This document shows, piece after piece, positions 2,779 to 22,277 of a stretch of DNA of 26,880 nucleotides; the stretch's first letter is position 1; the number at the start of each line of letters is the position of its first letter. The DNA comes from a virus, in IMG/VR virus record IMGVR_UViG_3300025141_000611, positions 1 to 26,880 of that record; one strand, 5' to 3'. The notes under the pieces are model-generated. The model did no database searches. It was not told the DNA's origin and saw nothing but the letters and a program-made list of their open reading frames with translations. The position numbers and the translations under genes were made by a program.

Positions 2779-3039
2779 CTAATCATAAATTCCCCACTGA
2801 CATGTTGCATAGCTTTCTAAACAATATGTGGTTAGTTTGTGGCCCGGGTGACGTAAAGGTGAACGCAACAAAAATGTGCAGCAACCTTCTTCACAAGAGA
2901 CCAAAGCATGCGAAGGCTGTGGCAGCTTGCATGAGTAATAATAGTCGTTATAAATACAGTGTCGGCCAAGTGGGGCAAATAAACACCCAGACATTGACAG
3001 ACATAGTGTAAGTAAAAATATTTTTTTAAGTTTTTTCAT
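2779..3039 (-). CDS. Small Cys-rich predicted lipoprotein (second of a pair)
   Basis: About 86 residues from the ATG giving MKKLKKIFLLTLCLSMSGC. This is a lysine-rich n-region, a hydrophobic core and a lipobox-like MSGC, so export and lipid attachment are predicted. An upstream in-frame start at 3054 would overlap the previous gene and add five polar residues, so the later ATG is preferred. The mature part has seven further cysteines, including a Cys-Cys pair, which suggests a small disulfide-bonded fold outside the cytoplasm. It resembles its neighbour in size, lipobox and the C-x3/4-CC pattern, so the two may be diverged duplicates. It begins 2 nt after that gene ends. Function is unknown; phage lipoproteins sometimes block superinfection or take part in lysis, but nothing here shows either. 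Confidence 0.7.
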   Translation of the reverse strand: MKKLKKIFLLTLCLSMSGCLFAPLGRHCIYNDYYYSCKLPQPSHALVSCEEGCCTFLLRSPLRHPGHKLTTYCLESYATCQWGIYD

Positions 3040-3040
3040 C

Positions 3041-3316
3041 TTAGTAACACACAACTTCTATGTTGGCCCACCAGCATGCGGACAGGTTTCTATATTCACA
3101 CCATGTTTCTTCACAGATCCATCCGTCATAGTCGTAATATTCCCAGATACAACACTGATCTGGGTAACAATAAATTGGATTGCCCATCTCCCAGTAAAGC
3201 TCCTCAACATTGTCACAAACTGGCTCAATTAAATATGGTCCTGTTGGCTCTGGGAAACTCGTGTCGACAAGACAACCCGAAAGCAGGACCCCTGTTAAAA
3301 ACAACATTCTTTTCAT
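3041..3316 (-). CDS. Small Cys-rich predicted lipoprotein (first of a pair)
   Basis: A 91-residue protein starting MKRMLFLTGVLLSGC, a very short signal peptide with a classical LLSGC lipobox (Cys15). Besides the lipidated Cys there are eight cysteines, including an adjacent pair, in a Trp- and Tyr-rich acidic chain. An even number suggests up to four disulfides in a compact extracytoplasmic domain. The start is well supported by AGGAG 8-9 nt upstream. It lies 20 nt downstream of a tRNA gene, and a near-consensus promoter precedes both, so tRNA and lipoproteins probably share a transcript. I do not recognise the family. Possible roles are superinfection exclusion, envelope modification or lysis, all inferred only from the export signal. 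Confidence 0.75.
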   Translation of the reverse strand: MKRMLFLTGVLLSGCLVDTSFPEPTGPYLIEPVCDNVEELYWEMGNPIYCYPDQCCIWEYYDYDGWICEETWCEYRNLSACWWANIEVVCY

Positions 3317-6979: not shown

Positions 6980-7826
6980 TTTCATCACCACCTTGTATTT
7001 CAGAACTCAACGCGAGTGTGTAAACAAAATCTTCTTCATAACTCGTTGAAAATACTCCATAACTTGTTCTGATTCCTTCTTGCTCATTGTCTCTTAGTTG
7101 TGTTTTTATCTTTTTCAAAAGACCTTTTTCTGTTTCAAGTCTTTTTTCATTGATACCATAATAGTATCTTATTTCACGCGTCTTGTCAAGTGGAAAAAAA
7201 TAATTTATTTCAGACTCGGGTGTGCCATAACCCAGGGTGGCTAGTCTGGCCGTCTCAGGGAGCGAGCAGAAAGTATCTGTGGCTGAATCTATGTGATCAT
7301 ATACATTCATCATGTGCATTGTAGTTGCAATCAGTTGATATGATGCTCTTGTTTGTTGCATTAAAGGCAAGTGTTCCATGATCGGTTCAATACTCTTCAT
7401 ATCGACCAGATATATCCTTTCAAAAACCCCTGATCTGGTATATTCTTGTAAAATGTTAAATGCTATTTTATCCGTAAACTGTGCTATTTTTGAAAAGAAA
7501 TGTATATCCTGTTTTATATACAGTATTTTTACATTAAGTTTTTTCTTATACAAATTTTCAAGAACGCGGAGGGACGCTGCTGATATCTGTTCAGAGCCAT
7601 CAACAATGAAAAGTACATTCCCTGTACAATTCTTGAAAAAGTACTTCATATTCGGACAATTCTTTTCGTATTCCTCTGGGCTTGGTTGCCTGGGAAAGTC
7701 ATATATCCCGTTTTTCTTTAAGCCTTCGAGATCGACGTCGATCTTGTAAATCTTATATTCCTCATAAGCAGAAAATTGATCTGCCAAGGCGCAACCTGTC
7801 TTTCCCAATCCAACAATCGTTTCCAT
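6960..7826 (-). CDS. Divergent tubulin/FtsZ-fold protein lacking the GTP-binding signature
   Basis: A 288-residue protein whose layout follows FtsZ/tubulin. Seen in order: a Gly-rich first loop VGLGKTG (5-11) after a short strand, a second strand ending KIDVD (28-32), NVLFIVDGSEQISAASLRVLE (70-90, cut here by description) where FtsZ has the T4 loop GGGTGTG, a strand VKILYIK (99-105), a helix to an ERIYLVD strand (136-142), SLPETARLATLGYG (188-201) at the place of FtsZ's T7-loop helix, and a C-terminal YYYGIN ... TSYGVFS ... FVYTLALSS pattern like the FtsZ C-domain. The GTP signature is replaced by DGSEQIS and the NxDxxD catalytic loop is absent, so GTP-driven polymerisation is doubtful. This is pattern reading, not a profile search; another Rossmann-type fold is possible. 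It starts 1 nt after the upstream gene. Confidence 0.55.
   Translation of the reverse strand: METIVGLGKTGCALADQFSAYEEYKIYKIDVDLEGLKKNGIYDFPRQPSPEEYEKNCPNMKYFFKNCTGNVLFIVDGSEQISAASLRVLENLYKKKLNVKILYIKQDIHFFSKIAQFTDKIAFNILQEYTRSGVFERIYLVDMKSIEPIMEHLPLMQQTRASYQLIATTMHMMNVYDHIDSATDTFCSLPETARLATLGYGTPESEINYFFPLDKTREIRYYYGINEKRLETEKGLLKKIKTQLRDNEQEGIRTSYGVFSTSYEEDFVYTLALSSEIQGGDENDKKQD
7161..7189 (-). promoter_or_regulatory. Possible internal promoter within tubulin-like gene
   Basis: A perfect TTGACA (7189-7184) with a 17-bp spacer precedes TACTAT (7166-7161, 4/6). It lies inside a coding region, about 180 nt before the 87-aa gene. The perfect -35 is notable but the -10 is weak, so chance is quite possible. 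Confidence 0.25.
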
Positions 7827-7827
7827 T

Positions 7828-8139
7828 TTACTCTTCTACAGTTTCTAAAATGATCCTGGCTTCGAAGATGCCTCTTTCATCGGATTTGTCACTCATACAT
7901 TCAGCCAATTCATCCTGGGAATAGCCCATGGCATCAACAAGGGCACTAAAAACCTCAAAAATATCCGCTAGTTCTTCCAGGCAGGGATCTTCAAGAAACT
8001 CATTAACTTCCTCAATTAATTTCTCCTTGAGTTTGATTTTGTATTCCTCTGGTTCGGCTACGTGGGTCCTAAAATTTTTCCCTTGCGCACTCATTATGGA
8101 TGGTATGTTGTCTCTCACCAGTTTATTGTACACTTTCAT
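7828..8139 (-). CDS. NTP pyrophosphohydrolase-like protein (MazG / phosphoribosyl-ATP pyrophosphatase-like)
   Basis: A 103-residue all-alpha protein starting MKVYNKLVRDNIPSIM, the typical opening of a small MazG/HisE-like family in phages and bacteria. A later helix carries EKLIEEVNEFL (near 38-48) and then EELADIFEVF (near 55-64), which together resemble the ExxE...ExxD metal-binding core used to cleave NTPs to NMP and pyrophosphate. The role in infection is uncertain: cleaning abnormal nucleotides or altering nucleotide signalling has been proposed for phage MazG proteins. Its ATG overlaps the polymerase stop as ATGA, and the tubulin-like gene follows after 1 nt, so it is firmly in the replication operon. 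Confidence 0.8.
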   Translation of the reverse strand: MKVYNKLVRDNIPSIMSAQGKNFRTHVAEPEEYKIKLKEKLIEEVNEFLEDPCLEELADIFEVFSALVDAMGYSQDELAECMSDKSDERGIFEARIILETVEE

Positions 8140-9320
8140 ATTTTTAACTCCTTCATGTTTCCAAAATCTTTGCCGGCTGATATATTCACCTTAAAATCGC
8201 CTAACTCTGTTTTAGAAAAAATTTCTTTGATTTCTGGTATCAAATGTTTTTCTGCATCAACGAGATCTATGACCAAGCTGTCGTGAATAGAAAAAGCAAT
8301 ATTTGATTGTTTATCTCTCAAAAACTCATGAACTTTTACCATTCTTCTCAAGAACATATCACTCGTTGTACTTTGAATTATATAATTTAAAGCGTGATGT
8401 GCATCGGCATCTATTATTCTATCATAAAAGGTATGTACTTGTTCACCATTCCAGTGTTTTTTTAACACAAAATCTCGATTATATATTTTACTTGAGGACC
8501 GGTCCTTCGAGTCGGGGTTGTATAGCCATGCAAAGATTCTTTTCTTTGCCTCGTCCCTTGTCGGATTGTTTTTGTATATGTTCTTTGCGTTCCATTGGTG
8601 TATATCTTCAATGGGTTGAGGTTGTCCGGAGAGCGCAAGGAGAGTTCTAAGCTCTGCGGCATTAAAGTCAAGCTCGACAAACCAATCATTCGTCGGTTTT
8701 ATGACCCCTCTGTATTCTTTGGCTAGGGTCAGGATGGGAAAGCTCCATTTCTTGGTCGTCAACCTTCCTGTCTTGGTGCCAAAAATATCATACTTTATAT
8801 AAGGAGCCTTTTCTTTTATTCGCTGTCTTATTTGTTTTGTTTTAAATTGATAGGCTTTTCGATTCATAGGGGTTAAATCGATATTCATTTTTTGATAATC
8901 TATTTCGCTGATGACTCTCTGCAAAGACAAGAGAAAATCATAATTGCTTGGTTTTTCGTATTTGTCAAAAACATACTGTGTTATCTTATTCTTGACATCA
9001 CAGAACTCCAATAAAAATCTTTCGGGGACTAGATCAAAAAAACAATTTTGATTTAAGTCTACCTTTGCTTCTTTGAACGATCTAAGAAAAGATTTAAGCT
9101 TATCAGATATGTAATCCCACTGATCTTTTAAGTGGTCCGGACAAGGGGCCCCAGGGCTATCTGAAGAACAGAGGAGACTAGCATACTGAATGTCCTTTCC
9201 GTCCAGATAAGAGGCATAAGCCCAGGTTTTAGTAAGATTATCGCTAATTTCACTATGAAGTCTCTCATTATAATACACTCCTACGCATTCTTTTTTGTCG
9301 TCTAAAGTTTGGAATATCAA
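8136..9320 (-). CDS. polA: Family A DNA polymerase, polymerase domain only
   Basis: A 394-residue protein with all family A motifs: TGRLTT (184-189), motif A VELDFNAAELR (catalytic D218), the O-helix R255-K259-F263-Y267 at exact four-residue spacing, and motif C HDS (catalytic D347). Phe at 263 matches E. coli F762, a position linked in the family to ddNTP discrimination. The first about 150 residues are too short and lack DxE-type motifs for a 3'-5' exonuclease, and there is no 5' nuclease domain; Klenow is about 605 residues. Proofreading is thus absent or supplied by another gene, as recalled for phage RM378, where polymerase and exonuclease are separate. The 5' nuclease is encoded separately at 3444-4415. 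The stop overlaps the next gene by 4 nt. Confidence 0.92.
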   Translation of the reverse strand: MIFQTLDDKKECVGVYYNERLHSEISDNLTKTWAYASYLDGKDIQYASLLCSSDSPGAPCPDHLKDQWDYISDKLKSFLRSFKEAKVDLNQNCFFDLVPERFLLEFCDVKNKITQYVFDKYEKPSNYDFLLSLQRVISEIDYQKMNIDLTPMNRKAYQFKTKQIRQRIKEKAPYIKYDIFGTKTGRLTTKKWSFPILTLAKEYRGVIKPTNDWFVELDFNAAELRTLLALSGQPQPIEDIHQWNAKNIYKNNPTRDEAKKRIFAWLYNPDSKDRSSSKIYNRDFVLKKHWNGEQVHTFYDRIIDADAHHALNYIIQSTTSDMFLRRMVKVHEFLRDKQSNIAFSIHDSLVIDLVDAEKHLIPEIKEIFSKTELGDFKVNISAGKDFGNMKELKI

Positions 9321-14994: not shown

Positions 14995-17262
14995 TTACAT
15001 TGGGGTTGCTGATATCTTTCCGGCACTTTCTACGATTCTTATAACTTGGCGTGCAACAGTTTCTCCAGCAAGATTAAAGTTGATTGGCTGGTTTATAACT
15101 TTTTGCGCGGATTGGGCTCCGCCGCCTCCTCCGCCTCCGCCTTGTGATGCAGCGACCATATTGACCATTTGTCTTGCTCCAGCCATATGAACATTCACGG
15201 AGGCTGCTGCATATTGTTTGGCAGCGTCTGCAACTTTAGTGATGTTTGCTGCTTCGCTAGCGGAAACGTCATCTGCAGTTGCCATTAAGCCTGACAAAGA
15301 TCGTGTTCCCATCGCACCTTTGCCTGATCCAAGTTTGCCCATGGAATCCGCAAATCTTTCTACATTACCTGTGACGCCTGCTGTGAACACGCCTCTAATC
15401 GCTCCACCCAAACTTTGAATTGGTCTTGCAGCTTTGTCTGCGGCGTTGGCCATTGCGCCAAACCCTTGCGCCATGAGGTTGGGTAATGAAAATACAGGTG
15501 GAGAATTTTCTTTTGAAGCTTGGGAGCCAAAATATGCGACTCCTGCTGCAACCAAACCAAGAGGCCCTATGACTGCTAAGCTACTCAGAGAAAGGGCCTT
15601 AAAACCCCCAACGAGAGCGTTGACGCCCCCTAGGACTTTTGAGAGTACCCCTGCAAAGGCAAGAAGTTTCACCGTGTTTTGTCCGCTGGCTGTTCTTATA
15701 AATGAAGACAGGCCCTCTATGGCGCTCCTCAACGTATTAATCAGCGGAGCGGCATCGACGGCCAACTGCATCATTGCTAGTCTTAGATTTTCTAAAGCTG
15801 GCTTAGCATCCCTAGCTAGTTTTGCGAAGTTTGCTTGTCTAGCTGAGGCTTGGCGGGCCTTGTCTTGGAAAGAGGATAAGGAATTGTTGTAGAATCTCTG
15901 TGCTTCTGCGACATCTCTAAAGCCTGCAGCGTTTGATAGGGCCATCCTTTCAAGCCTAGTCATTGAATCAAACGTTTTACCTGAAAGTTGAAGCGCTTGG
16001 TGCATTGCTTCCATTCTTTGAGATTCTGTCATATAAACCATTCTCACGCTGTTCAAATAAGAGCCTCCAAGAAGGCCATTTAATCTTCCGACTGCTGTAG
16101 CTGCGCCTTGGAACGTGTCAAATTGCGCAGCAACTCTGGTCAGGTCGGTCATTGCAAGACCGGTGGCTGCAGATTGCGCAGCTAGTTGTCTAAATACGGT
16201 GGTTGCATTGTTGCCATGAGCAGCCATTTGCGGAGCCAGTGCGTTAAATTGGCTTAAAGCCTGGTTGGCGTTCATGCCAATGCCGCGGGCCATACTCACA
16301 ATACTAGCTGTTGCCCTTTGTGCTGCATTATCTGACATTCCAAGATTGTTAGTGAAGAATTCTAATGCAGAAGTCGTCGAGCGCATGTCCATGCCCATCT
16401 CGCCTAATGTCGATACAAAAACGTTCATCGATTGTTGTGCAGCGGTGGTCATCGTTCTGAATCTGGTTAAGCCGTCATAGAGAGCTACTTGTGCTTGGCC
16501 GGCAGCCCTAAAGTCCAAAGCCATACTCTTAAGCTGGCCAGAGGCACCCAAAACAGACTGCGTAAACCGGTCGTTTGCACCGGTGGATTGTATAAGTGCC
16601 GAAGTCAGGCCATCTTGAGCGTGTAATAATGTTTCTGTTGCTGATAATATTGGACCTGTGATGACCGTAGCTGCACGACCAAAGTCGCGGTAACTAAATC
16701 CGCCTGCCTTTGCCTTCTGTACAATGCCCTCAAGCTGCATTGCAACGCCACCAAGGGCATTTGCCATGCCCCCTAATACAGTGTTGTTGAATGAAGTTGT
16801 GACGCCCATGGCGCCCTTGATTCTTGTGGCAAGGCCGGAGAAAGCAGCTGACTGGTTTTCAAGCTCTATCGTATTTTGTCGTGCGGCTTGAAGTTCTCTA
16901 ACCCTAGCTTGTCGTACTTCCTCTGAGGCACTTCTTATGTTCTGTAGGGTTTGAAGTTGCTGTTGAAGAAGTTGAGCGGTTTTTGAAAGGGCTCCGTGCG
17001 CGGTTACCGCTTCGGCATGGGCTTTCCTGGCGGTTTCAATTTGCTGATCAAGTGAGTTATTTGTTTGTGCTAGTAGGTTTAACTGATTGTTAATTTCGCT
17101 GGCAATTTTCTTGTTGGTATCTAAAGAAAATTGAAGCGCTGGTTGGTTGGCTGTAAGCGCCTGAGAGAGCTTCTTTTCTTTCTTAATCTGTTCTTCGATT
17201 AATTTATTTTGCTGCTCTCTAAGCGCGTTTAATTGTGCTTGCTCTGCTGGTGTTAAAGCCAT
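14995..17262 (-). CDS. Tail tape measure protein
   Basis: A 755-residue protein with the usual tape measure makeup: N-terminal about 150 residues of Gln/Glu/Lys/Ala-rich coiled coil (LREQQNKLIEEQIKKEKKL), long Ala-rich helices, and hydrophobic segments near 530-577 (VLSKVLGGVNALVGGFKAL, VIGPLGLVAAGVAYFG) that could insert into the host membrane during DNA entry. An eight-glycine run near 707-714, encoded by alternating GGC/GGA codons at 15118-15141, forms a flexible linker before the C-terminal tail. It sets tail length and occupies the tube lumen. T4 gp29 is 590 aa, so the tail may be somewhat longer than T4's. It starts 11 nt after a small unknown gene, whose TGAGGG stop region supplies a ribosome site. 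Confidence 0.9.
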   Translation of the reverse strand: MALTPAEQAQLNALREQQNKLIEEQIKKEKKLSQALTANQPALQFSLDTNKKIASEINNQLNLLAQTNNSLDQQIETARKAHAEAVTAHGALSKTAQLLQQQLQTLQNIRSASEEVRQARVRELQAARQNTIELENQSAAFSGLATRIKGAMGVTTSFNNTVLGGMANALGGVAMQLEGIVQKAKAGGFSYRDFGRAATVITGPILSATETLLHAQDGLTSALIQSTGANDRFTQSVLGASGQLKSMALDFRAAGQAQVALYDGLTRFRTMTTAAQQSMNVFVSTLGEMGMDMRSTTSALEFFTNNLGMSDNAAQRATASIVSMARGIGMNANQALSQFNALAPQMAAHGNNATTVFRQLAAQSAATGLAMTDLTRVAAQFDTFQGAATAVGRLNGLLGGSYLNSVRMVYMTESQRMEAMHQALQLSGKTFDSMTRLERMALSNAAGFRDVAEAQRFYNNSLSSFQDKARQASARQANFAKLARDAKPALENLRLAMMQLAVDAAPLINTLRSAIEGLSSFIRTASGQNTVKLLAFAGVLSKVLGGVNALVGGFKALSLSSLAVIGPLGLVAAGVAYFGSQASKENSPPVFSLPNLMAQGFGAMANAADKAARPIQSLGGAIRGVFTAGVTGNVERFADSMGKLGSGKGAMGTRSLSGLMATADDVSASEAANITKVADAAKQYAAASVNVHMAGARQMVNMVAASQGGGGGGGGAQSAQKVINQPINFNLAGETVARQVIRIVESAGKISATPM

Positions 17263-17273
17263 TGGTTATGCCC

Positions 17274-17615
17274 TCACCCTATTGGCCAGCGTAGACCAGT
17301 TTGATTTTGAAACGCCATTATGGCGCGGTTTAGCCTAGCGGCATCATTCCATGTGCTTGGATTGTTCAAGCCAAGAGATGATGCGGTTTTTAAATATCTG
17401 GCTTCTTGGGCGATTGTGCCGGCAAAAGCGCCAATTTCATTGGGGGTGCCTTTAATTTGCAAAGTACCTGCTGCACCGGAAAGTATTTTCTCAAGAGCTA
17501 AGGCTACTTGACCACCAAAGGACTCATAATAGACTTCATTAAGCATATTCTCTTTAGCAGAGGTCAGATCTATTACAATTACATCGGAGAGTTTTTCTTC
17601 ATTTAAGTTCTTCAT
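17274..17615 (-). CDS. Unknown small protein between gp51-like and tape measure genes (113 aa)
   Basis: A 113-residue protein from the ATG at 17615 (MKNLNEEKLSDVIVIDLTSA), preferred over a TTG four codons earlier because GGGA lies 7 nt upstream. It has no signal peptide or membrane helix. The sequence is mixed alpha/beta with a Gly/Ala-rich centre (ILSGAAGTLQIKGTPNEIGAF) and a C-terminal helix ending GLRWPIG. The location between candidate tail-assembly chaperones and the tape measure suggests a tail-assembly or minor tail role, but I do not recognise the family. A CTATTTAT element lies 23 nt upstream of the ATG. Confidence 0.75.
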   Translation of the reverse strand: MKNLNEEKLSDVIVIDLTSAKENMLNEVYYESFGGQVALALEKILSGAAGTLQIKGTPNEIGAFAGTIAQEARYLKTASSLGLNNPSTWNDAARLNRAIMAFQNQTGLRWPIG

Positions 17616-17638
17616 GATTTGTCCCAAAGTATTTCAAT

Positions 17639-17661: not shown

Positions 17662-17904
17662 TTATAACTTTTTGGTATCGCGAGTAACTTTTTCCATTTC
17701 TTCTTGCTCCATCTTCATTTGTTCTGTTAATTTATTAACAAACCATTCGCGAATTTTGACGGGCAAATTGTATGCCTCTAGGAAACTCCAGCCACCATGA
17801 TATTTTAAATAAAAGAACTGTTCATAAACATTCTCTATATAATCATCGCTTAGGCCAAAAAAAGTCTGCCGTAAACGGCAGCTCAACCTCCTGTTTGTGG
17901 CCAC
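17662..17904 (-). CDS. gp51-like baseplate hub assembly protein, probably expressed by frameshift from the gp26-like gene
   Basis: An 80-codon frame whose conserved part begins at GLSDDYIENVYEQFFYLKYH (codons 17 onward) and continues GGWSFLEAYNLPVKIREWF, a pattern I associate with gp51-type proteins of T4-like phages, which act in hub assembly. The nominal start is a GTG at 17904 with no Shine-Dalgarno, and the first 16 codons lie wholly within the gp26-like gene and read like an out-of-frame translation. A T7 run at 17863-17857 would let +1 (or -2) shifting join FF of gp26-like to GLSDD, giving a fusion of about 344 residues. Gene pairs overlapping this way just before tape measure genes are the rule for tail-assembly chaperones. 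Independent translation from GTG is possible but less attractive. The tail is Glu/Lys-rich and ends at 17662. Confidence 0.72.
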   Translation of the reverse strand: MATNRRLSCRLRQTFFGLSDDYIENVYEQFFYLKYHGGWSFLEAYNLPVKIREWFVNKLTEQMKMEQEEMEKVTRDTKKL

Positions 17905-18697
17905 AACTAGTGCAAGAGAAATCTTGATTTAAATCCAAGTTAGGCATTATACACACATAACAATATCTGGCGTGTTGGGCATCCATTGCGGGCATAACAT
18001 CAATAAAAGAATTTATTGTGCTCGGTTGGTTGTCTCCATTAACTGAAACAATCATAAGACCGAATTGATCGGTTAGTGTACCTTCCGGAAGGTTGTTTCT
18101 TCTTCTATTTTCGGCTAGGTCAAGAAGTCTTTTTTCATCTCGGCCAGTCAACAATCTCAACTCAAGCTTAACCTTGGAGACTGGAAGATCAACTATAAAT
18201 GTTCCATGCTCTGTTTCTTTGGCTTCGGCTTTTTCAAGATCAAAACCATAGTTCATCTTTTTTTCGCTTAAATCAAAAGATTGTTTTACAGTAGCGAAAC
18301 AAGACGGGCAGTTAATCGTTGTGTTATATTGTGGACCATAACCCGTTACCCTAGAGGCCACGATTAATGCGTTTTTGTCGCCAACCAACAAATCGTCAAC
18401 GCTGATGTTTTTATCAACAATAACATTTTGTAACATTCTTTCAATTGCGACCCCTTGTTTTAAAAGGGAGGCAGAAGTTAAGATGTCTTCATCTTTGGCT
18501 GTCATATATCTAATTTCAATAGTGTCAACTCCGCATAGTGGATGGCCATCTGGATAAGTTCTACCTCTTGATGGAAGCTCCACTATTTCCGTTGGAGATG
18601 CAAAAGAAAAAGAAGTGGTGTTGTCGTTTGTTACAGGTGGCGTGGTTGGAGCTTTCTTTCTCGCTCCGACGCGTTCCTGATTATTTCTAGCTGCCAT
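17843..18697 (-). CDS. gp26-like baseplate hub / tail assembly protein with zinc-binding Cys pairs
   Basis: A 284-residue protein. The N-terminal 30 residues are Thr/Pro/Asn-rich and probably flexible. Next comes IVELPSRGRTYPDGHPL (38-54) and MTAKDEDILTSASLLKQG (65-82), a signature shared by gp26-type proteins and other phage tail-assembly chaperones, where a helix follows 'T..ded.lt'. Two CxxC pairs, CPSC (130/133) and CTSC (262/265), probably bind one zinc ion. The C-terminus ends in FFWPKR. T4 gp26 is 208 aa. In T4 gp26 acts with gp51 in building the central hub. It lies between tail tube and tape measure genes, the position of G/GT chaperones in other tailed phages, and its last 62 nt overlap the gp51-like frame. 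Confidence 0.85.
   Translation of the reverse strand: MAARNNQERVGARKKAPTTPPVTNDNTTSFSFASPTEIVELPSRGRTYPDGHPLCGVDTIEIRYMTAKDEDILTSASLLKQGVAIERMLQNVIVDKNISVDDLLVGDKNALIVASRVTGYGPQYNTTINCPSCFATVKQSFDLSEKKMNYGFDLEKAEAKETEHGTFIVDLPVSKVKLELRLLTGRDEKRLLDLAENRRRNNLPEGTLTDQFGLMIVSVNGDNQPSTINSFIDVMPAMDAQHARYCYVCIMPNLDLNQDFSCTSCGHKQEVELPFTADFFWPKR
17857..17881 (-). promoter_or_regulatory. Candidate recoding site: hairpin followed by T7 slippery run
   Basis: In transcript order, CTGCCG-TTTA-CGGCAG (17881-17866) forms a perfect 6-bp hairpin, followed after AC by seven uridines (17863-17857) and GG. Reading GAC UUU UUU UGG continues gp26-like to its stop 15 nt later. Skipping one base (or slipping back two) enters the gp51-like frame at GGC. 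An AGGAGG (17892-17887) lies 23 nt upstream of the run with no usable start codon behind it. Both ribosomal frameshifting and polymerase slippage at the U-run fit. The structure also resembles a weak intrinsic terminator. Confidence 0.6.
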
Positions 18698-18762: not shown

Positions 18763-19278
18763 TTATGCCTTTGTAAAGTCGGCAAAATCATATCTAATAT
18801 CTAAGCTGATGTCTAACATAGCATCGGAGTCGTAGGCAAGGTTTCCAAATTTGGCCCCCTTGATCCAAGGATTATAGAATCTCCATGTCTCTAAAAGCTG
18901 ATCATTTGCACCTCTTTGCTCAATACGAATTTGAGGACCGAGAGCATCTACTGCTTCAGCCTTTGAGATAGAGCGAAGGGCACCTGATTGAAGAGGAGCA
19001 TCTGGAATTGCATAGCCTGATCTTCTGAGCATTGTCAAAACTCTTTCTGATGTGTCAGGGTCCACAGGGTCGACCAAAGTAACACTCAAAGAGTCCCACT
19101 GAAGCTGTCCTGGGTAGTAAAAATAGTGTCCGTAGAAGTTGTGTGAGGTTTCGCCAACCGTAAACCCTGGTTTGTTAACTGACTTAACTACAAAAGTCGG
19201 AATTGCGGAATTGCTCGCGAAAAACAAAAAACGATGTTGTCGTTTTGGCTCCAAAGTGCTGTCTGCCCAAAATGCCAT
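18763..19278 (-). CDS. Tail tube protein (gp19-like)
   Basis: A 171-residue protein, close to T4 gp19 (163 aa). It forms the inner tube through which DNA passes. Typical features: N-terminal strand with KRQHRFLFF, FVVKSVNKPGFTV (near 30-42), the YYPGQLQWDSLSVTLVDPVDP segment (54-74) and the C-terminal LDISLDIRYDFADF strand pair. No Cys and no membrane segments. It follows the sheath gene by 56 nt with AAGGAG well placed before the ATG. The order sheath-tube-chaperones-tape measure is the standard contractile tail layout. Confidence 0.92.
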   Translation of the reverse strand: MAFWADSTLEPKRQHRFLFFASNSAIPTFVVKSVNKPGFTVGETSHNFYGHYFYYPGQLQWDSLSVTLVDPVDPDTSERVLTMLRRSGYAIPDAPLQSGALRSISKAEAVDALGPQIRIEQRGANDQLLETWRFYNPWIKGAKFGNLAYDSDAMLDISLDIRYDFADFTKA

Positions 19279-19334: not shown

Positions 19335-22277
19335 TTAATCCGCGAACGAAGCTCCAGAGTCTGTAATTACAAAGTCAAGTGCGATGAATTCAATTGCTTG
19401 TGCTGGTTTCAGGAAAATCTTGGCATACAAGATGTTTCTATCAATCAACTCAGGTGTGGTGGTTGTTTCGTCAAGAACAACCTTAAAGTCTGTCAGGCCT
19501 TGTCCGCCCTTAATATTACCCAATAAAGTCTCGACCTGGCCCGAGAACTTATTCCAAGTCTCTTGTACGTTTTGCTCAAACAATGTTGTCGCGGCAATTC
19601 GTGAAACCTGCTTTTTGATTAGAAGAAGCAAACGACGTACGTTGATTCTATCCAAAGCAGATGGAGTAACTTGGAGAGTCTTTTGTCCGAAGACTACGAC
19701 TCCTTCAGCAGGGAAAGTTGCGATTGGATTAATGTTCGCGCCGTAAAGGTCATCTCTTTCCTCTGATGTAAGTTGCAGCTTGATTCCTGTTACCGGAAGT
19801 CCTGCTGCGCCATTCGAGAGGCCACCGCGAGTGAATCCTGCGGGAGCGAACCAAACTTCGCGAGAAGCTTCGCTCGAACCAAGAGTACCAAGAGCCACAA
19901 CGGAGGGCGGGACGTAGAGCAATCGGTTTGAATCTGTGTCTCTAATTTGTACGAACGGATAATAGGCCGCTGCGTAACTGGAATTGATCTGTCTAGACTT
20001 CAGATTGTTGACCACTGCAATTGGGTCTGGTCTGTTGGTTGCCTCTGTGCTAGTGTTTTCGTGAGGAGGAACATAATCCCCCACAAGGTCAATAATAGCC
20101 AGAGCATCTGCTCTGCTTTCACAGGTCTCAATTAAGTGATCTGTGAGAGAAGTGTTTGTAATACCAGGTGCTGTTGCCAAATTAATATCAACAACTTCTG
20201 GATCTGCGATAGTGTCAATGGCTCTCTTGACAGAATAGAAAGCGTAATTACCGACTTCTGTTCCGCTGGTCATGAAAGCGTTTCGGAAAGGATCTTTCTC
20301 TGTAATATCCAACCCATCAGTACCGCCATGGAAGACGGTTGTGAATTTATTGTAATTAAGTCCGGATCCTGTAAGTAAGGCACTTGAACCACTCATGGAT
20401 GTGATCGAACCTAAATTTCCGTCTCCATCGGCTGTGTGTGTTACTCTAGAGCCTGAAATGTACTCGACTAAGCCAAGGCCTGTGCTTCTATTTCTCGCTG
20501 CGAGATTATCGAGAGAGAAAATAAAGGAAGGTCCAACTGATGTAGAATCGTCATCGTCATCAAGAGTGCCTGGAAGTGGGCGCAAAACGTCCAAAACGTT
20601 TGGATCGAATTTTGCGGAACCAGATTTTCCTAAGTCAACACCCCAGAACTGATTACTTTGTTTGTCCATGCGATTCTGTCGTCCATCTCTTTTAAGAGCA
20701 AGAACTGGGAAACGGAAAGACGAAGTTGAGTTAAGTGGCCAGAAGGCATAGTTGTCTGTATCTGTGTCTGGGGAAAGAGTTGTTTCTGTATTCCCTTTGA
20801 TAAAGACAGCGTTTGTTGATCCCAATTCTGAAATAAGAGTAATGTTGTCGACATCCTTAACCTTAGGAGGACCGAAGAAACCAAACGGGAGAAGTTGCGG
20901 ATCTGTTGCACCTTGCATAACTTCTGTGTTCATTTCCACATACATATATTTAGACATGTTGTCATAATCGCCATAGTGACGATATCGTCTTTCTGTATCA
21001 TCCCAAATTTGATGTTTATCGCCAACCTTTCTGGCTACATAGTTCTCGGAATTTGGATTCAAGGAACAATTTGTAAACTTCTCGACCAATTGAGGAGCTT
21101 TGTCGGAGTCGTCAATTTTTCTGATCGCTACAGTAAATGTACCAAAAGGATTTGATTTATTCGAAGATGGTTTGATATCCATAATAGAAACTTTCAAATT
21201 TCTCTGGGTCCACTCTCCGTGCTCTCTTGCAATAAGTCTGAAGAGTTTTTGTTGATCGGCTGGCTTGAAGCTAGCTGCGGCGCCAACGTCCTGTGCGATA
21301 AACCACCCGGTTCGAGCTTTTGTCGCTTGGCGTTGGTGATCTGCCCACTCCAGGGCGTTTGCGGCTTGTGAGGCAAGACCTAGGACCATACCATGAGTAA
21401 CATCATTTAGCGAGTTCAGGCCTGAGCGTTCAAGATGGCTCCCGTCTGTCGATCCTGTGCGTGCGTGGAGTGAGTTAATAAACGTCTCTCCCAAGAAATA
21501 ATTCTTATAAGCGGTTGAAGAGCCGGTAACAACGTCGCTATTTGTCACAATTGGATTTGTATTGAATACCTTTCTAATATAATTATCAGAATTTTCATCA
21601 AAATTAAATACAATCTTTTCTGCACCTGTACCTGTTCTAATCTGGGTTGTTGTACCGATGAGTGCTGTAAACTCCGCTGCTCTATTGGCGCTGCTTGTTG
21701 AAATAGAAGTTGCATGAGAAGCAGTGGTAGACACAGTGTCTGCCGATGCACTCTCCATAGTTCCAGAAAGCGCTACGAGGCCGCCTGCGTTCATTGCATA
21801 GAACACTGCGGCTAGATTCCAAACTTGTCCTCCGTTAGATGCAGAGTTCATCAAGAAGAGACCAAAGGCGCCGCGTTCGGCGTCTGCACCTGAAGTGCCA
21901 ATATTCCCAGCGTCCCAGCCAGCGTTTTGGTCGCCGTCGCCGGATGTTCTGCTTGGAGAGTGAGTACCAAGTAGTCTTACCACTGTGCAAGGAGAGTTAT
22001 TTTTGAGCCATGCTTTGGCAGCATACCCAGCATAAGTTGGAGAACTATAGTTTCCATCTCTAAATACGTCGCCGGCTTTTCCACCGGGGATTGGATTACC
22101 AAAAAGTTCTACGTAGTCGGAATATGATTCTACCGTGACCGGGATCATTCCGGGGCCCTTCTCTGTTCTACCGATAATCGCGGGCCCTGGTTGGGTAGAT
22201 GTCTTTGGTAATTGTGAGTTATCGATTTCCTCCAAGAAAATTCCCGGGGAAACAAAATTAAACTTTTTCTCAGCCAT
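19335..22277 (-). CDS. Tail sheath protein (gp18-like), enlarged
   Basis: A 980-residue contractile sheath subunit. The N-terminus has the family opening FVSPGIFLEEIDNSQLP then GPAIIGRTEKGP (near 30-42). The C-terminal domain contains INVRRLLLLIKKQVSRIA, followed by FEQNVQETWNKFSGQVETLL and the final AIEFIALDFVITDSG strand, as in gp18-type sheaths; this domain carries the intersubunit arms. T4 gp18 is 659 aa, so over 300 residues are extra, mostly as Ser/Thr/Asn/Gly-rich middle parts (about 150-300 and 540-680) that probably form protruding surface domains. AAAGGAG lies 10 nt upstream of the ATG and an ACTATTTAT element about 43 nt upstream. Confidence 0.93.
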   Translation of the reverse strand: MAEKKFNFVSPGIFLEEIDNSQLPKTSTQPGPAIIGRTEKGPGMIPVTVESYSDYVELFGNPIPGGKAGDVFRDGNYSSPTYAGYAAKAWLKNNSPCTVVRLLGTHSPSRTSGDGDQNAGWDAGNIGTSGADAERGAFGLFLMNSASNGGQVWNLAAVFYAMNAGGLVALSGTMESASADTVSTTASHATSISTSSANRAAEFTALIGTTTQIRTGTGAEKIVFNFDENSDNYIRKVFNTNPIVTNSDVVTGSSTAYKNYFLGETFINSLHARTGSTDGSHLERSGLNSLNDVTHGMVLGLASQAANALEWADHQRQATKARTGWFIAQDVGAAASFKPADQQKLFRLIAREHGEWTQRNLKVSIMDIKPSSNKSNPFGTFTVAIRKIDDSDKAPQLVEKFTNCSLNPNSENYVARKVGDKHQIWDDTERRYRHYGDYDNMSKYMYVEMNTEVMQGATDPQLLPFGFFGPPKVKDVDNITLISELGSTNAVFIKGNTETTLSPDTDTDNYAFWPLNSTSSFRFPVLALKRDGRQNRMDKQSNQFWGVDLGKSGSAKFDPNVLDVLRPLPGTLDDDDDSTSVGPSFIFSLDNLAARNRSTGLGLVEYISGSRVTHTADGDGNLGSITSMSGSSALLTGSGLNYNKFTTVFHGGTDGLDITEKDPFRNAFMTSGTEVGNYAFYSVKRAIDTIADPEVVDINLATAPGITNTSLTDHLIETCESRADALAIIDLVGDYVPPHENTSTEATNRPDPIAVVNNLKSRQINSSYAAAYYPFVQIRDTDSNRLLYVPPSVVALGTLGSSEASREVWFAPAGFTRGGLSNGAAGLPVTGIKLQLTSEERDDLYGANINPIATFPAEGVVVFGQKTLQVTPSALDRINVRRLLLLIKKQVSRIAATTLFEQNVQETWNKFSGQVETLLGNIKGGQGLTDFKVVLDETTTTPELIDRNILYAKIFLKPAQAIEFIALDFVITDSGASFAD

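Follow-up and report, generated by a model that had tools for sequence, protein, structure and literature searches.

The question raised by this locus is whether two overlapping open reading frames encode two proteins or a single tail assembly chaperone made in two lengths. The window, by which is meant the whole stretch of DNA analysed, is a 26,880-base IMG/VR record of a marine T4-related virus in which the tail tube gene is followed by a 284-aa PF12322 gene, a 117-aa ORF and the tape measure gene. A preliminary description had proposed that the 284-aa frame, taken as gp26-like, and a "gp51-like" frame overlapping its end are the equivalents of G and GT chaperones, fused by an unusual frameshift or by polymerase slippage. 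The features on which the argument depends are as follows.

18763..19278, minus strand: tail tube protein, 171 aa (phrog_4542, 1.3e-17)
17843..18697, minus strand: TAC-N, the proposed G equivalent and 0-frame product, 284 aa (PF12322/phrog_150, T4 gp26-type; from profile matches and gene position)
17902..17904, minus strand: GTG with which the ORF in +1 begins; relatives keep no constant start, their start codons shifting in place or missing
17887..17892, minus strand: AGGAGG, an internal Shine-Dalgarno conserved in relatives and set 23 nt 5' of the Phe codons; role putative
17866..17881, minus strand: hairpin CTGCCG-TTTA-CGGCAG, present in the window sequence, without conservation
17857..17863, minus strand: candidate shift site, a run of seven Ts read as TTT TTT T(GG) (from family-wide conservation)
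17662..17862, minus strand: TAC-C, the proposed T equivalent, a conserved domain read in +1, FFGLSDDYIENVYEQ...KKL with its stop (from comparison and predicted fold)
17843..17845, minus strand: TGA that stops the 0 frame; Phe pair through TGA, both included, spans 21 nt
17274..17627, minus strand: 117-aa ORF lying 3' of the chaperone locus and 5' of the tape measure gene
14995..17262, minus strand: tape measure protein of the tail, 755 aa, which the chaperone is expected to serve (phrog_167, 3.9e-10)

When re-read on the minus strand, the coordinates of the preliminary description all proved correct. The 284-aa ORF (18697-17843) closes with GAC TTT TTT TGG CCT AAG CGA TGA, read as FFWPKR-stop, and the downstream ORF runs for 80 aa in the +1 frame from the GTG at 17904 to the stop at 17662, overlapping its neighbour by 62 nt with the T7 run at 17863-17857. 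The conserved domain does begin in the +1 frame exactly at this run, and the fusion, which had been put at about 344 aa, is by translation exactly 344 aa (TAC-NC) after a single +1 step at the T7. The GTG is not the only upstream start, as had been stated, since an in-frame TTG abuts the AGGAGG, 29 nt 5' of the TGG codon and 23 nt 5' of the T run. The locus lies where G/GT-type genes are expected, after the tail tube gene and just upstream of the tape measure gene with the one 117-aa ORF intervening; in phage HTVC008M a small gene likewise occupies the place of that ORF. We propose that the two overlapping ORFs are one tail assembly chaperone gene, with a short and a long form produced by a +1 ribosomal slip, and place the probability of this reading at about 0.88.

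The comparison of junctions in related phages, which had been suggested as a check, carries most of the evidence. Loci were drawn from IMG/VR by three queries, 80 each through the window N domain, the protein of Flavobacterium phage immuto and P-SSM2 gp26, and isolate phages were added for the junction analysis; one locus of the cyanophage group (L175), with frame 0 and no final Phe pair recognised, was set aside. In the comparable set of 243 loci, forming 64 clusters at 75% amino acid identity, the downstream domain always lies in a frame other than that of the Phe pair, in +1 in 159/159 loci and in -1 in 84/84, and it is never a distant gene. The -1 loci comprise the Kyanoviridae and one derived marine lineage. 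By group, the C domain is +1 in 79 and -1 in 2 of the 81 usable loci of the window group (window included), +1 in 80/80 of the immuto group, and -1 in 82/82 of the Kyanoviridae-type loci with a recognisable Phe pair. Substitutions in the C domain follow the codon pattern of the +1 frame, at 7105:3763:13400 for positions 1:2:3, and this pattern, together with the constancy of the frame in both sets, places the arrangement far beyond chance. As in G/GT-type genes, a conserved second ORF in another frame is, to judge from sequence comparison, joined at a slippery site throughout these loci. Conservation of the arrangement, the frame and the slip codons is shown, as is the homology to gp26/gp51, and the comparative evidence backs the earlier proposal of G/GT-equivalent chaperones with an unusual, +1, shift.

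More distant phages show both versions. The C domain is +1 in Microcystis phage Mel-JY01, Rhodothermus phage RM378 (TTT TTT TGG), SP-15, LIS04, SagM-GXN1 and the giant phage LR756508, and -1 in RAS14 and LR756511. On an Erysipelotrichaceae MAG contig (L285) the gene ends EFFRPTK-stop with the +1 frame open, as read by eye. A viral scan returned one locus with the SP-15 protein as query and none with the RAS14 protein; a plasmid search gave no relatives, and cellular genomes with DUF6760 amounted to one Bacillota genome with no clear junction. In a Bacillota genome (L288), the minus-strand ORF 486-1376 is a PF12322 gene ending DFFIYSG with a C domain that is likely +1, and the TTT TTT T motif of the window is, by eye, seemingly absent from it.

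The nucleotides at the junction bear on the direction of the shift. UUU_Y is found within the last Phe pair of 159/159 +1 loci, whose sites vary among TTTTTTTGG, TTTCTTTGG, TTTCTATGG, TTCTTTTGG, TTTTTTTGT and TTTCTTTAC. T7 is kept in most loci, and the +1 relatives that have no long T run read TTC TTT TGG, TTT CTT TGG or TTT CTA TGG. In most +1 clusters TTT_T or CTT_T is present, which would allow a P-site slip of the type seen in prfB, whose +1 shift sites are UUU_U and CUU_U (PMC5009743); the site of phage immuto, TTT CTT TGG, includes the CUU_U of prfB. These variants fit a +1 movement of tRNA-Phe (or of tRNA-Leu on CUU_U) and not a -2 shift or polymerase slippage. The -1 loci always have T TTT TTC or T TTT TTT. 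T stands immediately 5' of the Phe pair in 12/12 -1 clusters versus 0/52 +1 clusters, against a background of 41% T at codons for the same amino acids elsewhere in +1 genes; as the clusters are not fully independent, the argument lies in this contrast in the preceding base and not in a P value. Two loci of the window group (L021 and L022) have eight Ts, GAT TTT TTT TGG with one extra T, and a -1 C domain, and their nesting inside the +1 group in the tree marks an apparent switch of shift direction within that group.

Upstream of the site, 30/38 clusters of the window group and 10/14 of the immuto group have a GGAGG no more than 45 nt away, where about 0.02 or less is expected. At the place of the Shine-Dalgarno, Glu is encoded by GAG in 60/74 cases versus 286/751 elsewhere in the window group (P=8e-13) and in 18/20 versus 43/257 in the immuto group. 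The internal Shine-Dalgarno, at 17887-17892 and in relatives, is under synonymous selection, with no start codon conserved in place 3' of it. Its distance to the Phe pair in +1 loci is mostly 17, 23 or 26 nt, and this spacing of 17-26 nt falls outside those reported for stimulators, 3 nt for +1 and 9-14 nt for -1 (PMC5009743). The cyanophage Shine-Dalgarno lies 11 nt from the site and the downstream RNA is stabler than shuffled sequence (mean z -2.6; 8/10 below -2), which together form a textbook -1 set-up. Downstream RNA structure in +1 loci was unsupported (mean z about 0 to -0.7). The hairpin of the window, which the preliminary description had placed beside the run as a possible aid to slippage, is real and stops 2 nt short of the T run, but it is not conserved, as all six pairs form in 4/38 clusters and the fraction of pairs formed was 0.518 observed versus 0.492 shuffled; it is rejected as a stimulator. 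It is tentatively suggested, as a possibility that we hold somewhat doubtful, that one Phe-Phe hinge serves as a two-way site, in which the preceding base and the base after each UUU set +1 versus -1, and that the distant internal Shine-Dalgarno acts as a +1 stimulator of a kind undescribed before.

Several other routes to a fused or separate product have to be weighed against the +1 slip. RNA polymerase slipping on the T7 could yield a portion of mRNAs with 6 or 9 U, in which the frames are fused, and the conservation of T7 in most loci agrees with this. However, the +1 layout is kept with TTCTTTTGG, TTTCTTTGG or TTTCTATGG, which have at most 3-4 Ts in a row, and the base 5' of the run tracks the shift direction as ribosomal -1 sites predict, so that slippage, which had been put forward alongside frameshifting, now appears very improbable. 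The earlier proposal had also left the shift as "+1 (or -2)". A ribosomal -2 shift, as in phage Mu, would enter the same frame with one extra Phe, and the T7 of the window permits perfect re-pairing two bases back; in the relatives with TTC TTT TGG and TTT CTT TGG the tRNA would be mismatched, whereas a +1 movement re-pairs. The +1 part of that claim stands, and the -2 part is given as little credence as slippage. Homopolymers are error-prone in sequencing, and a truly continuous T6 gene broken by a sequencing or assembly error was the main alternative at the outset. This is refuted by the presence of T7 in dozens of independent contigs, and a like frame break occurs in all 243 loci, including the finished isolates immuto, Mel-JY01, P-SSM2 and S-PM2, and also at non-homopolymer sites, leaving the explanation a negligible probability.

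A separate C-terminal protein, made by internal or coupled initiation, would be consistent with the AGGAGG conserved upstream and with the cyanophage ATG two bases after the gp26 stop, which is annotated as the start of gene 51. Many loci, although not all, have some ATG, GTG or TTG in the frame of the C domain. However, no start codon is conserved in place in the +1 loci, and 6/38 window-group and 2/14 immuto clusters are without any in that frame; in HTVC008M the ATG beside the stop does not share the domain's frame (frame read by eye), and 81/82 cyanophage loci retain T TTT TTC at synonymous third positions, a constraint that would be needless for coupling. A separate protein is accordingly considered improbable. 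The +1 slip itself has points against it that emerge from the comparison with prfB. The +1 loci share the CUU_U or UUU_U shift codons of the prfB frameshift, but prfB has a stop codon in the A site and a Shine-Dalgarno at 3 nt, whereas the +1 loci have the sense codon UGG and a conserved Shine-Dalgarno 17-26 nt away.

The identity of the two domains was approached through profile comparison. The 284-aa protein scores 60.7 bits against PF12322 (T4_baseplate, the gp26 family; curated cut-off 24.5) and 2.7e-17 against phrog_150, the T4 gp26 family. Both T4 gp26 and T4 gp51 match PF12322, and T4 gp51 matches almost all of the phrog_150 profile (13-280), of which S-PM2 gp26 covers 5-232 and S-PM2 gp51 covers 240-281, the last 40 positions. 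Cyanophage gp26 and gp51, when joined, align with T4 gp51 (hhalign 98.2%, E 2.9e-14, 183 columns), and the window fusion matches the cyanophage fusion at 96.2% in profile comparison; for the C domain taken by itself, the chain runs from window T to cyanophage T (82.7%) and from cyanophage T to the gp51 C-terminus (95.6%). On these alignments T4 gp51 is a gp26 domain followed by a C-terminal domain and cyanophage "gp51" is the C-terminal domain alone; the profile coverage and the fusion alignments thus identify the downstream ORF as the C domain carried by the long form of the chaperone. The label "gp51-like" holds by way of cyanophage gp51, itself this very domain, but not directly, as neither the T4 gp51 profile (phrog_634, baseplate hub assembly catalyst) nor any other PHROG profile gave a direct match to the window's downstream domain. 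Direct homology between the domain of the window group and T4 gp51 was not significant in profile comparison, the link being transitive through the cyanophages. Against DUF6760 (PF20546) the window C domain reached 17.9 bits, below the cut-off of 27, and weak matches were seen in 35/50 relatives (best 2e-5).

The N and C domains were folded separately. The C domain is predicted as three helices (mean pLDDT 92), and the model found no match in a fold search. For the N domain model, the highest-ranking PDB structure was the HK97 tail assembly chaperone 2ob9, with a probability of 0.75 but an E of 0.28, which is not significant, and the fifth was YqbN (0.14), which we take to be a prophage tail-chaperone-type protein; these matches are suggestive only. 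A PDB sequence search with the fusion and gp51 gave no meaningful match.

We infer the slip event, its efficiency and the function of both forms. The model proposes that the majority of ribosomes would stay in the 0 frame and release the 284-aa TAC-N. A minority would pause when UGG occupies the A site and peptidyl-tRNA-Phe is paired with UUU, move +1 to a further UUU and continue with GGC CUA AGC, yielding the 344-aa TAC-NC, whose C-terminal domain is predicted to have three helices. If the forms act as lambda G and GT do, the short one may coat the tape measure protein, and tail tube subunits may be recruited by the long one. Lambda gpG/gpGT similarly has a short and a long form from overlapping ORFs near the tape measure gene, the helical C-terminal extension being added by a frameshift, but lambda shifts -1 and the window locus +1 at UUU_Y, and no sequence similarity was seen between them, the window N domain being of PF12322 with CxxC motifs. 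T4 resembles the window in that gp26 is the N domain and gp51 the N plus C domain; however, these are two separate genes on opposite strands, whereas the window has one gene and a frameshift. Kyanoviridae gp26-gp51 (S-PM2, P-SSM2; T TTT TTC) have the same two domains and the Phe-Phe hinge, and differ from the window in the -1 frame, the nearer Shine-Dalgarno, the structured downstream RNA and the ATG after the stop.

Vladimirov and co-workers are said to name genes 26 and 51 in the abstract of their 2022 report and to find that frameshifting persists in several T4-like groups. Passages of two later papers cite that report for T4-like tail chaperone genes (Vladimirov et al., 2022, cited in PMC10885494 and PMC12846349), the first for T4-like phages with one short and one fused long gene, and the second describes poly-T -1 signals as known from the TAC-N genes of such phages. 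What is said here of T4 and the cyanophages is therefore not new. A 2016 review held G-T frameshifting to be widely conserved, with T4 the exception among long-tailed phages (PMC5009743), and 0305phi8-36 has a two-gene form without frameshift (PMC2147016). The preliminary description was right that tail chaperones are known for -1 and -2 shifts, although a likely +1 shift had also been proposed before, for the chaperone of the archaeal myovirus HSTV-2, whose inferred +1-frame extension is similar by description to that of the window (PMC5009743). Neither the UUU_Y +1 group nor the direction rule nor the distant Shine-Dalgarno turned up in the literature searched, most subscription journals lying outside it, and the UUU_Y +1 version with its direction rule adds a further variation to the known chaperone frameshift.

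Frameshift versions of the gp26 family span marine, freshwater, Flavobacterium, cyanobacterial and Gram-positive phages, and the exchange of +1 and -1 versions within one protein family provides a natural series in which to test what determines shift direction. Annotations may be corrected as well, as the "gp51" genes of many phages would be the C-terminal half of a fusion, and so would misannotated or unannotated stretches such as that of phage immuto. In the deposited immuto genome the C domain (L003:4695-4940) is unannotated as such, and the sole ORF called inside it is of 111 nt. Elsewhere in the window, the tail sheath protein (19335-22277) is very large at 980 aa, with sheath profile matches mainly in its C-terminal third; a family A DNA polymerase (8136-9320; PF00476, 1.4e-15) has only 394 aa, apparently without an exonuclease part; and two neighbouring 91-aa ORFs (2779-3316), cysteine-rich and with no Pfam match, have lipoprotein-like signal peptides.
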